A DNA stretch of 31,937 nucleotides, from IMG/VR virus record IMGVR_UViG_3300048837_000847, positions 1-31,937 of that record, one strand, 5' to 3'. Below the pieces are notes generated by a model. That model saw only the letters and a list, made by a program, of their open reading frames with translations. It ran no database searches and was not told where the DNA came from. Both the position numbers and the translations under genes were made by a program. The stretch is from a virus. The stretch's first letter is position 1; the number at the start of each line of letters is the position of its first letter. Below are positions 4,549 through 10,682 of the stretch, piece by piece.

Positions 4549-5298
4549 ATGGTAGTAAAAGGGTGGTACTTTTCGGATGAGTCTCGCAAGCTGCGCTACG
4601 ACGCCGGCCGCGAGATTGCTATAGGCGTCGAGCATACGGTAAAGGGCTACCCCGAGCCGTGCAAACGTGGCCTACACGCCAGCGAGCGTATTCTTGACGC
4701 GCTACAATATGCGCCGGGGCCGATTATCTGGCGCGTCGAGCTGTCCGGGCGAATTAAACGTGGCGACGACAAGGTTGCGGCTACGAGGCGCAAGTACATA
4801 GCTGGCGGCTTAGACATAAGCGACATCTTGCGCAAGTTTGCCAGAAAGCAGGCTTTATCCGTGGCGCATTTGTGGGACATACCGGAGATTGTGCGGCGGT
4901 ATCTTGAGATTGGAGACGAGTTTATAAGGGCCGCCGCCTGGGCCGCCGCCTGGGCCGCCGCTAAGGACGCCGCCAGTGACGCCGCCTGGGCCGCCGCCAG
5001 GGCCGCCGCCTGGGCCGCCGCCAGTGACGCCGCCAGTGACGCCGCCAGGGCCGCCGCCTGGGCCGCCGCCAGTGACGCCGCCTGGGCCGCCGCCTGGGCC
5101 GCCGCCAGGGCCGCCGCCTGGGCCGCCGCCAGTGACGCCGCCTGGGCCGCCGCCAGGGACGCCGCCAGTGACGCCGCCTGGGCCGCCGCCAGGGCCGCCG
5201 CCAGGGCCGCCGCCGGGGCCGCCGCCGGGGACGCCGCATGGGCGGTTGCGCATAAGATGCTTGAGGATATGGTTTTGGCCGCGATCGGAGGCGACTAA
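4549..5298 (+). CDS. DUF7666-like protein with long Ala/Trp tetrapeptide repeat
   Basis: A 249-residue protein. Residues 1-90 match the DUF7666-type phage domain of unknown function: KGWYFSDESRKLRYDAGREI, PEPCKRGLHASERILDALQY, then a short beta segment. Residues about 126-230 are about 26 four-residue units of the form (A/D)-A-A-(W/S/R/G), for example DAAWAAARAAAW, predicted as a long continuous helix with one face of Trp/Arg/Ser, with 11 Trp in the tract. At DNA level this is a 12-bp repeat. It is first in the rightward operon, with GGAAGGGG upstream and a good promoter. Related proteins often carry such Ala-rich tails. The function is unknown; an oligomeric or membrane-associated helix is conjecture. 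Confidence 0.85.
   Translation: MVVKGWYFSDESRKLRYDAGREIAIGVEHTVKGYPEPCKRGLHASERILDALQYAPGPIIWRVELSGRIKRGDDKVAATRRKYIAGGLDISDILRKFARKQALSVAHLWDIPEIVRRYLEIGDEFIRAAAWAAAWAAAKDAASDAAWAAARAAAWAAASDAASDAARAAAWAAASDAAWAAAWAAARAAAWAAASDAAWAAARDAASDAAWAAARAAARAAAGAAAGDAAWAVAHKMLEDMVLAAIGGD
4930..5240. repeat. 12-bp tandem repeat tract
   Basis: About 26 imperfect units of the pattern GCCGCC-NNN-GNC in phase with the Ala-rich tail of the gene at 4549. The tract is open in other frames: the shifted plus frame reads Pro-Pro-Gly collagen-like units and the complement reads Gly-Gly-Pro-Gly units. The tract should be prone to slippage, so its length may vary between genomes or be misassembled. Confidence 0.9.
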
Positions 5299-6710: not shown

Positions 6711-6780
6711 GCGCCCCCGCGCGGATTTGAACCGCCAGCCCCGGCCCTTGTTACAGGTGGCATAGCCTGGCAGGGGGCGG
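6711..6780 (-). pseudogene. Degenerate tRNA-like element
   Basis: On the minus strand a perfect 4-bp hairpin carries the loop TTCAAAT (GCGG-TTCAAAT-CCGC), the universal T-arm pattern, next to GGGGGC-G-CC, which pairs with GCCCCC about 60 bases upstream as an acceptor-like stem. A 4-bp D-arm-like hairpin (CAGG/CCTG) follows the 5' strand. Too few bases remain for an anticodon arm. The middle has some likeness to valine tRNAs. I regard it as a decayed tRNA or tRNA-like terminator loop. Confidence 0.35.
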
Positions 6781-9502: not shown

Positions 9503-9529
9503 TTGACGGGTATTACAGTATTGTAGTAT
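9503..9529 (+). promoter_or_regulatory. Putative rightward promoter for the tRNA region
   Basis: TTGACG (9503-9508) with TAGTAT (9524-9529) 15 bp away; spacing is short, so the call is tentative. The spacer contains AGTATTGTA, also present at the 10683 promoter and at the late promoter near 28113. Transcription from here would cover the structured region, the tRNAs and the genes from 10151. Confidence 0.4.
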
Positions 9530-9728
9530 GGTACGAGTAGGGCCGGGCCGTATGGCTAAGGCTTAAACGCCGGCGGGCTAACGCAACTTCTTTATCAGTT
9601 GACGCCGGGAAAGACCGGAACGCGCGTTGCGCGTCATGTTATCACGGTAGCCGCTCCACCAATAACGGGCGGGCATTGTAAAGAACTCGGAATATCCGCC
9701 CTGGCTCCGTTGGAGATGGGCGGCACAT
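9530..9728 (+). other. Structured non-coding segment
   Basis: No convincing protein gene. Paired elements include CCGGCG/CGCCGG (9570-9575 with 9603-9608) enclosing CAACT/AGTTG with an 8-base loop, ACGCG/CGCGT near 9620-9634, and three mutually exclusive copies GGGCGG, CCGCCC, GGGCGG near 9667, 9697 and 9718. The middle copy can pair with either neighbour, giving two alternative folds. The function is unknown; it could be a 5' leader of the tRNA transcript. Confidence 0.45.
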
Positions 9729-9807
9729 GGAAGCGATGCCGAGATGACGTCCATCGGCTAGACGGCGCGCCCATACGCGCTAGCGGGTTCGGAGCCCGCC
9801 GCTTCCA
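9729..9807 (+). ncRNA. tRNA-like fold without an anticodon arm
   Basis: A 7-bp perfect acceptor-like stem (GGAAGCG with CGCTTCC) ends in A then ACC. It is preceded by a T-arm-like hairpin (GCGGG-TTCGGAG-CCCGC). A D-arm-like hairpin (GCCG/CGGC) follows the 5' strand after AT, and a 5-bp hairpin with loop CCCATA sits where a variable arm would be. The acceptor resembles serine tRNAs. There is no normal anticodon arm and the T-loop lacks A58. Its 3' strand overlaps the anticodon loop of the permuted tRNA-Trp, so both cannot mature from one transcript. Confidence 0.4.
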
Positions 9808-9877
9808 ACCCTGGAAGTGCAGGTTCAAATCCTGTCGTTCCCGATTGGGGGCGTAGTGTAACGGTTAGCACGCTAGG
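9803..9877 (+). tRNA. Circularly permuted tRNA-Trp (CCA)
   Basis: The 3' part comes first: anticodon loop TTCCAAC (9803-9809; U33, anticodon CCA, A37), stem CCTGG (9810-9814), variable AAGT, T-arm GCAGG-TTCAAAT-CCTGT (9819-9835), acceptor CGTTCCC (9836-9842) and G73. After a 3-nt linker ATT comes the 5' part: acceptor GGGGGCG (9847-9853), TA, D-arm GTGT-AACGGTTA-GCAC (9856-9871), G26 and stem CTAGG (9873-9877). The acceptor closes 7/7 (two G-U) and the anticodon stem 5/5 (one G-U). The 5' half resembles bacterial tRNA-Trp, and G73 plus CCA are Trp identity elements. Flanks CCCG (9795-9798) and CGGG (9878-9881) can pair and stack on the anticodon stem. Maturation would require joining 31 to 32. 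Confidence 0.8.
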
Positions 9878-9977
9878 CGGGGGTCAACCGTAGCCCTGCA
9901 AGTTCAAACGGTACTAGCCAAAGCGTAGTGCACTGCGCGGCGGCTAGCGCGTGGCCCCTGCGAAACGGGGCGTGTTT
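9878..9977 (+). other. Non-coding spacer between the two tRNAs
   Basis: No gene is seen. It contains an ACCGT/ACGGT hairpin near 9887-9912 with GTTCAAAC in its loop region, a GCGC-GGCGGCTA-GCGC hairpin that looks like an isolated D-arm, and GCCCC/GGGGC with an 8-base loop. These may be debris of further tRNAs or processing signals. I cannot assemble a complete tRNA from them in either order. Confidence 0.4.
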
Positions 9978-10084
9978 CGGGGTGTAGACAAGCGGTTAGT
10001 CAACCATGAACGGATGGCACTAGAAGCGAAAGCCGAAGCCATGGCGGGAATGGTCAATGGCGGGTTCGACTCCCGCTGCCCCGG
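9978..10084 (+). tRNA. tRNA with 35-nt insert in the anticodon arm (Pro-like)
   Basis: In normal order: acceptor CGGGGTG/TGCCCCG (7/7 with two G-U), TA, D-arm GAC-AAGCGGTTA-GTC, A26, stem ACCAT (10003-10007), a 35-nt insert (10008-10042), loop GGCGGGA (10043-10049), stem ATGGT, variable CAATG, T-arm GCGGG-TTCGACT-CCCGC, G73. Without the insert it is a textbook 72-nt cloverleaf. C1-G72 and the loop bases CGG-G37 suggest proline (CGG), but position 33 is G instead of the near-universal U. The insert is bracketed by direct CCATG repeats and carries its own ATGGC/GCCAT helix. Either an intron or a decayed gene. Confidence 0.6.
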
Positions 10085-10150
10085 CGATTTGTGCAGCTAT
10101 GCGGGCACCATGCACGCAGGCCAGCACGTTTTTAAAGCAAGGAGGCTAAA

Positions 10151-10318: not shown

Positions 10319-10682
10319 CGAGCGCGGGCCGCTTGAAGCTGACATCCAGGCCCAGCTCGTCGAGTATTGTCAGCTCGTAGCCCCCGCGCGGGGCTTTCTC
10401 TTTTTTAGCGCGCCTAACGAAGCGCTAGGCAAGGCCCGTAACGGCGCCGGCCTCGCGCGCATGGCGAAGCTCCGCAAGATGGGCCTCCGCTCGGGCGTGG
10501 CCGATCTTGTTTTCGTCAAGGCTGGCCGCGTGTACTTTCTCGAAATGAAGCGACCCGGCGGCAAGCAAAGCGAGAGCCAAAAGCAATTCCAGGCCGACGC
10601 CGAGGCCGTGGGCGCGCCGTATGCGGTGGCGTTTAGCTTTGACGAAGCGGTAAAAATCTTGCAATCTTGGGGCGTTTTATAG
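10311..10682 (+). CDS. VRR-NUC domain nuclease
   Basis: A 123-residue protein that is essentially a single VRR-NUC (PD-(D/E)xK superfamily) domain. The first helix EADIQAQLVEYCQLV carries the conserved Glu. Catalytic residues appear as Asp65 in SGVADLVFV and Glu78-x-Lys80 in YFLEMKRPGG, followed by QSESQKQF with the conserved Gln. Such stand-alone phage VRR-NUC proteins are thought to act as structure-specific, possibly Holliday-junction, nucleases. Its place just upstream of the recombination genes supports a role in DNA processing, although a strong promoter separates it from them. Confidence 0.9.
   Translation: MPSERGPLEADIQAQLVEYCQLVAPARGFLFFSAPNEALGKARNGAGLARMAKLRKMGLRSGVADLVFVKAGRVYFLEMKRPGGKQSESQKQFQADAEAVGAPYAVAFSFDEAVKILQSWGVL

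Follow-up and report, generated by a model that had tools for sequence, protein, structure and literature searches.

The virus stretch analyzed here (31,937 nucleotides, called the window below) encodes, at positions 9978–10084 on the plus strand, a tRNA-shaped RNA whose anticodon loop is replaced by a 42-nt domain, and we tentatively favor the reading that this gene specifies a tRNA-like RNA that does not decode and whose anticodon arm is extended, carried in the leader of an early operon. A 22-bp direct repeat bounds the 31.9-kb stretch, which is phage DNA with genes for terminase, portal, RecT, and exonuclease. The gene lies in an array of tRNA-like elements that also includes a permuted tRNA-shaped domain.

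The gene reads, in order, CGGGGTG, TA, GAC-AAGCGGTTA-GTC, A, ACCAT, 42 nt, ATGGT, CAATG, GCGGG-TTCGACT-CCCGC, TGCCCCG, and G. Its 5' part (9978–10007) holds the acceptor strand, U8, the D arm, and the anticodon stem strand ACCAT; the apical domain occupies 10008–10049, of which 10008–10042 are the 35 nt in excess of a normal 7-nt loop; and the 3' part (10050–10084) supplies the anticodon stem strand ATGGT, the variable loop CAATG, the T arm, the acceptor strand, and G73. All 20 stem pairs form (acceptor 7/7 with two G-U, D 3/3, anticodon 5/5, T 5/5) and the T loop has the consensus TTCGACT, as befits a tRNA-shaped body. The initial annotation of a tRNA with 35 extra nucleotides is thereby confirmed, as deletion of 10008–10042 leaves normal arm lengths and the 7-nt loop GGCGGGA, which ARAGORN reads as tRNA-Pro(CGG) with a score of 112.0. 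C1-G72 and the CGGGA half of the restored loop presumably suit proline, by comparison with known Pro tRNAs.

The direct repeats described at the borders of the insert are also present, CCATG forming a run of exactly five matches at a distance of 35. This repeat allows the insertion point to lie anywhere from 26/27 to 31/32; the earlier placement between positions 31 and 32 is valid and shared with the permuted neighbor, but is one of several equivalents. The internal ATGGC/GCCAT helix exists, yet the region 10003–10052 folds no better than its shuffles (z −0.14). The restored loop lacks U33, and the earlier suggestion of a defective tRNA is upheld. Position 48 carries a G, which abolishes the G15-C48 pair, and T instead of A stands at position 21.

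Default finders call no tRNA at 9978–10084 because the anticodon loop is missing, and ARAGORN and Rfam at these settings report none in the whole phage stretch. With the insert kept and introns disallowed, ARAGORN finds nothing at 9978–10084, the covariance score, suggested earlier as a check, stays below the gathering threshold of the Rfam tRNA model (RF00005), and the RNA folded without constraints is not a cloverleaf. When anticodon-loop introns are allowed, ARAGORN calls one tRNA in the whole 32 kb, at 9978–10085 with a score of 107.6, which none of 200 dinucleotide-shuffled windows reaches (26 matches, top 107.4); the setting -i0,60 left intron length unlimited, making this control conservative, if anything. 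A deletion scan of the array gave scores of 117.4, 115.3, and 114.6, whereas a single shuffle of 30 scored at all (101.8) and 24 other phage stretches reached at most 105.2. Given these shuffle and deletion-scan controls, a chance origin of the fold is unlikely, and the broader idea of a chance resemblance or assembly artefact, to which the failure of Rfam to recognize the gene lends some color, is scarcely credible.

The interpretation of the extra 35 nt as an intron did not hold up. A functional tRNA from which infected cells remove a genuine 35-nt intron by means of some endonuclease and ligase would fit the exact arm lengths and Pro(CGG) reading obtained on removal, as well as the U33-restoring anticodon-arm inserts of other phage tRNAs described below, but we regard it as highly improbable. 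No contiguous excision from 9978–10084, in any placement, leaves a 5-bp stem and a 7-nt loop with U33. The best bulge-helix-bulge has 5 of 8 pairs over 40 placements, a score equaled or exceeded by 299 of 300 shuffles. No Rfam intron family matches the gene at E ≤ 10, and the 35-nt insert has no group I catalytic core. The splicing endonuclease domain tRNA_int_endo (PF01974) was found neither in the phage nor in bin G008, whose association with a relative of the phage may be due to chance. This bin is bacterial (small subunit rRNA 808.8 bits with the bacterial model vs. 574.5 with the archaeal) and includes a contig with the capsid gene of that relative. The insert also differs from the ACAGCAA inserts of other phages, and a tRNA-Pro(CGG) would meet no evident demand, since CCG is not a rare codon among 16 phage genes (22.5 per 1000). 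Bacterial group I introns in tRNAs sit in the anticodon loop, as does the insert in the window, but its 35 nt are far too short for one and match none in Rfam. Archaeal and eukaryotic tRNA introns and permuted tRNA genes resemble the array in having an anticodon-arm insert and a permuted gene order (tRNA genes with reversed fragments and circularized transcripts are mentioned in PMC10085705). The window, however, is of a bacterial-type phage and has no bulge-helix-bulge, no splicing endonuclease that we could find, and no U33 after removal of the insert.

Upstream in the array lies the permuted tRNA-Trp of the initial annotation, which was borne out as a domain split at 31/32 that ARAGORN, once the halves are rejoined, scores at 116.5 as Trp(CCA). 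Its 3' half (9803–9843, plus strand; loop TTCCAAC, CCTGG, AAGT, T arm, CGTTCCC, and G) precedes an ATT linker (9844–9846), which together with G73 forms a GATT loop capping the acceptor stem in the fold of 9803–9877, and the 5' half follows at 9847–9877 (GGGGGCG, TA, D arm, G, and CTAGG). Counting G-U, 21 of 21 stem pairs form, with the acceptor (7/7) and anticodon stem (5/5) pairing across the halves, and A15 matches U48 as read from the sequence. The minimum-energy fold is a full cloverleaf with a GATT-capped acceptor and an anticodon stem open to the flanking RNA, and the domain is thus opened at the same anticodon-stem position as 9978–10084. In a scan of all 70–80-nt circles this place tops the window with 121.1, read as Gly at a neighboring junction, and four shuffles reach at most 104.5. 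The Trp reading has competitors in a GCTTCC...GGAAGT hairpin and in a second reading of 9783–9844 as a piece of a class II tRNA. A further reading of the array, as an overlapping tRNA of class II with its long variable arm (9729–9844; up to 117.4 after one deletion and 125.6 when permuted), was set aside as improbable, as it would combine class II structure with a Pro CGG anticodon. A permuted tmRNA (RF04321, 21.1 of 47 bits) was likewise discarded, the D arm being a normal tRNA arm.

Another upstream piece is a tRNA-like cloverleaf at 9729–9807 (plus strand; acceptor GGAAGCG/CGCTTCC, T-like arm GCGGG-TTCGGAG-CCCGC), which is also the minimum-energy fold (z −2.9). Its T loop lacks A58 and its D loop lacks GG, and the D and anticodon loops are unlike those of tRNAs. 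The folding excess of the whole array is only z −1.4. Two similar CCATG...ATGG hairpins can be read from its sequence, and a T-loop-like GTTCAAAC lies near 9899 without a T stem. A mobile palindromic insert was dismissed since a second copy is absent from the window and its relatives. As to the array serving as an attachment site, the Trp 3' half matches host tRNAs in 0 of 286 genomes of the phylum of G008, and no integrase is among the families found on scanning 25 distinct phage ORFs.

Bacterial Y RNAs such as YrlA have a permuted tRNA-like domain composed of T arm, capped acceptor hairpin, D arm, and anticodon-like closing stem, and the fold of 9803–9877 has the arrangement of this module. 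According to PMC11472068, tRNAs and a bacterial Y RNA can be superposed, with a circular permutation, and PMC7790460 describes the YrlA domain as tRNA-like and suggests that it might act as a competitive inhibitor of an anticodon nuclease. The resemblance has limits: the Rfam YrlA model (RF02553) gives 9803–9877 only 16.7 bits (E 0.015 in this genome) against a family threshold of 69, and the phage lacks a Y-type hairpin with ACAGCAA. It also lacks a Ro-like gene, with neither PF05731 (TROVE) nor PF11443 (DUF2828) found in the window record, although a host protein may serve as Ro/Rsr partner. Moreover, YrlA is permuted whereas 9978–10084 is unpermuted.

A promoter-like site (TTGACG-18-TATGGT, 9503–9532, plus strand, 9 of 12 matches in a consensus scan) precedes the array and the early genes, and its position suggests that the array forms the start, or leader, of an early operon. 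Two such sites occur in the stretch against 0.7 ± 0.8 expected, which by itself is no sign of function. The array sits between divergent genes that are 723 bp apart in the window and 140 bp apart in G004 (start codons placed by eye), a relative with a terminase 69% identical; in another relative, G007, a different gene occupies its place. In G006 and the G008 contig, neither a counterpart of the flanking nuclease gene nor an interrupted tRNA was found in the DNA compared. An ordinary uninterrupted tRNA-Gln is present in G006 (L015:846-917). The initial annotation had proposed to look in related phages for an uninterrupted version; the array is absent from all relatives compared, which were found by RecT, terminase, and capsid protein. 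Nor was a close homologue of 9978–10084 found: the array DNA has no similarity to GenBank phages beyond short tRNA pieces at E values of about 2–8, an exact search of IMG/VR with the 5' half returned 0 matches, and a search for the D-arm type of the window followed by a long gap recovered seven stretches, none with its architecture.

The initial annotation did not expect short anticodon-arm introns in typical phage tRNAs. Many virus contigs in fact have inserts there, those that can be typed belonging to a different family. Through a 24-nt segment of the Trp half we reached a 74-kb virus contig, L022, with two tRNA genes whose anticodon loops measure 23 and about 50 nt and which, at 45.6 and 42.5 bits, both exceed the Rfam threshold for tRNA. 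We then scanned virus sequences for D and T arms spaced 45–75 nt apart, using one D-arm/T-arm consensus, and obtained at least 124 matches in at least 120 stretches. Among the 124 matches listed, 92 were kept (acceptor at least 6/7, T stem at least 4/5) and the other 32, with a weak acceptor or T stem, were left out. Of these 92 listed matches, 28 have a contiguous 5/5 anticodon stem, a 4–6-nt variable loop, and a 26–55-nt loop, against 2.1 expected from shuffles, and 18 of the 28 allow no U33-restoring excision. The gene at 9978–10084 has the architecture of the 28, with its 5/5 stem and enlarged loop. In 31 of the 92 listed (shuffles 36 of 4600), some excision brings back a 5-bp stem together with U33 and a purine at position 37, about a third of these 31, with breaks at 42/43, being long variable-arm tRNAs without an anticodon-arm insert; another count of the same 92 gave 18 with an ordinary 7-nt anticodon arm directly after the D arm. 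A stricter general finder recovered 28 stretched genes among 166 bodies, of which 2 have an enlarged loop on a 5-bp stem vs. 60 of 560 shuffles, the frame of the anticodon arm being uncertain. As this finder fails to reproduce the excess of 5-bp stems, the size of the decoder-less class is uncertain. In the titles and opening abstracts searched, which cover journals outside subscription, no paper reports phage genes of tRNA-like form in which the anticodon loop has been exchanged.

Other unusual forms were seen among the stretched genes. By eye, L022:11288-11404, the L022 gene with the longer loop, and L130 near 10530–10630 (minus strand) appear two-headed, with a second, permuted tRNA elbow made of T arm, short hairpin, and D arm where the anticodon loop would be, and two tRNA genes of 140–143 nt (L051:8073-8215 and L140:2156-2295) have an apparent second tRNA-like fold at 37/38 with His- and Gln-like loops. 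The inserts are alike within small groups (L028, L087, and L123; L121 and L126; L057 and L117), for example CTCATGGTGAAGG and GAAACC...TACCTAA.

The analysis also uncovered a family of phage tRNAs with an added hairpin domain. Among the matches listed, many stretched tRNAs have a hairpin, two bases, and then ACAGCAA as an insert that interrupts the 5' anticodon-stem strand after position 27–29, the domain being about 40–52 nt long. Members include L105:2120-2236, L048:10274-10386 and 10535-10648, L061:9329-9444, L118:7370-7484, L140:2435-2556, and others. When the domain is left out, a 5-bp stem with U33 and R37 reappears in 15 of 33 motif-bearing bodies (shuffles 29 of 3300), a proportion that retains at least five bodies that look like spurious pairings. 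In an alignment of 21 members chosen by hand from the 33, the hairpin covaries, with 7 of 7 pairs changing on both sides and 46 double-changed cells vs. 15.8 in shuffles (0 of 500). In their 3' parts these genes match tRNA-Asn and tRNA-Thr genes from other phages. Mycobacteriophages Zakai and Loadrie contain DNA matching the L061 gene, located directly after a gene annotated “Ro-like RNA binding protein,” and both phages (L146:1430-1700, KX580961, Zakai; L148, KU997639, Loadrie) have three ACAGCAA stretches and what reads as a permuted tRNA-Thr downstream of that gene. The permuted tRNA-Thr has the same junction and scores 21.4 bits (E 0.53) with the YrlA model; the annotated 71-nt tRNA-Thr of Zakai spans just part of it. 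The Ro-like protein matches DUF2828 and DUF7788, and DUF2828 occurs in 10 of 12 records with ACAGCAA tRNAs, in 1 of 9 with other stretched tRNAs, and in none of 4 comprising the window and its relatives, whereas TROVE is found in 0 of 17 records. The ACAGCAA genes are putative tRNA/Y-RNA chimeras that may bind a Ro-like protein.

The window gene resembles the ACAGCAA tRNAs in having a tRNA body to which an anticodon-arm domain of comparable size has been added. The family, however, is broken at 27–29, has a proper anticodon loop, and is accompanied by DUF2828, whereas the window gene is broken within 26/27 to 31/32 and has no U33 loop, motif, or DUF2828. A Y-domain insert of the ACAGCAA type in the window was rejected, the top match in the array to the covarying 7-bp hairpin, 2 nt, and ACAGCAA being 5 bits. 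Since the window has no motif match, the ACAGCAA family is context for the window and gives no explanation of 9978–10084.

A maintained tRNA-like RNA is favored because the stems are intact, the permuted neighbor is opened at the same place, and the architecture recurs elsewhere. The tRNA-derived product of 9978–10084 would have kept the tRNA body and lost decoding, with the 42-nt apical extension of the anticodon arm standing in for the anticodon loop, and it would be transcribed in the leader of the early operon and remain unspliced. A second tRNA-shaped domain, permuted like the tRNA module of Y RNAs, would adjoin it, opened at the same anticodon-stem position. The role might be that of a tRNA look-alike that lures or competes for enzymes acting on tRNA, or that serves as a signal for processing. 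Several observations count against a mimic, namely the score below the Rfam tRNA threshold, the lack of a close homologue, the missing array in relatives, the lack of excess structure, the non-cloverleaf unconstrained fold, the atypical bases at positions 48 and 21, and the absence of a Ro-like gene.

Decay of an acquired, recently broken tRNA cluster is possible and a serious second candidate, because the array is absent in relatives, its folding is unremarkable, the G15-C48 pair is lost, and parts of it look broken. A Pro-like loop would then have been lost by a CCATG-flanked replacement or duplication, and the “permuted Trp” would be a 3' half and a neighboring 5' half left by two different dead tRNAs. 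Among the phages compared only this one has the array; the stemless T-loop-like GTTCAAAC looks broken, the two similar hairpins suggest duplication, the insert shows no excess structure, U33 is gone as well as the G15-C48 pair, and an ordinary tandem of tRNAs also yields a 3' end closely before a 5' end. Decay is harder to reconcile with perfect stems in both RNAs (20/20, and 21/21 with G-U) and damage confined to the anticodon loop, with permuted halves that pair with each other over the whole acceptor and anticodon stem, and with the recurrence of loop-only replacement in other virus contigs. The preferred reading, a non-decoding RNA, can be extended to a leader RNA with two tRNA-shaped domains in both possible circular permutations, each opened at the anticodon stem, one continuing into the transcript and the other closed by an apical hairpin. 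Both would be decoder-less mimics, for example baits for tRNA-cutting defenses, of a broad phage class with exchanged anticodon loops; this fuller version is unlikely.

If decoder-less tRNA-shaped RNAs are common in phages, many missed or “undetermined” tRNA genes may do non-decoding work, with counter-defense against tRNA-cutting immunity or binding of a Ro-like protein as candidate roles. Tractable cases are Zakai and Loadrie, phages of M. smegmatis mc2 155 in which related RNAs lie next to a Ro-like gene. Elsewhere in the window, a T-arm-like GGCGG-TTCAAAT-CCGCG occurs at 6736 on the minus strand near a GCCCCC/GGGGGC pair and is possibly a tRNA piece or attachment site, and an ORF at 4549–5298 (plus strand) contains a long Ala/Trp-rich repeat with AAWAAARDAAS-like units.
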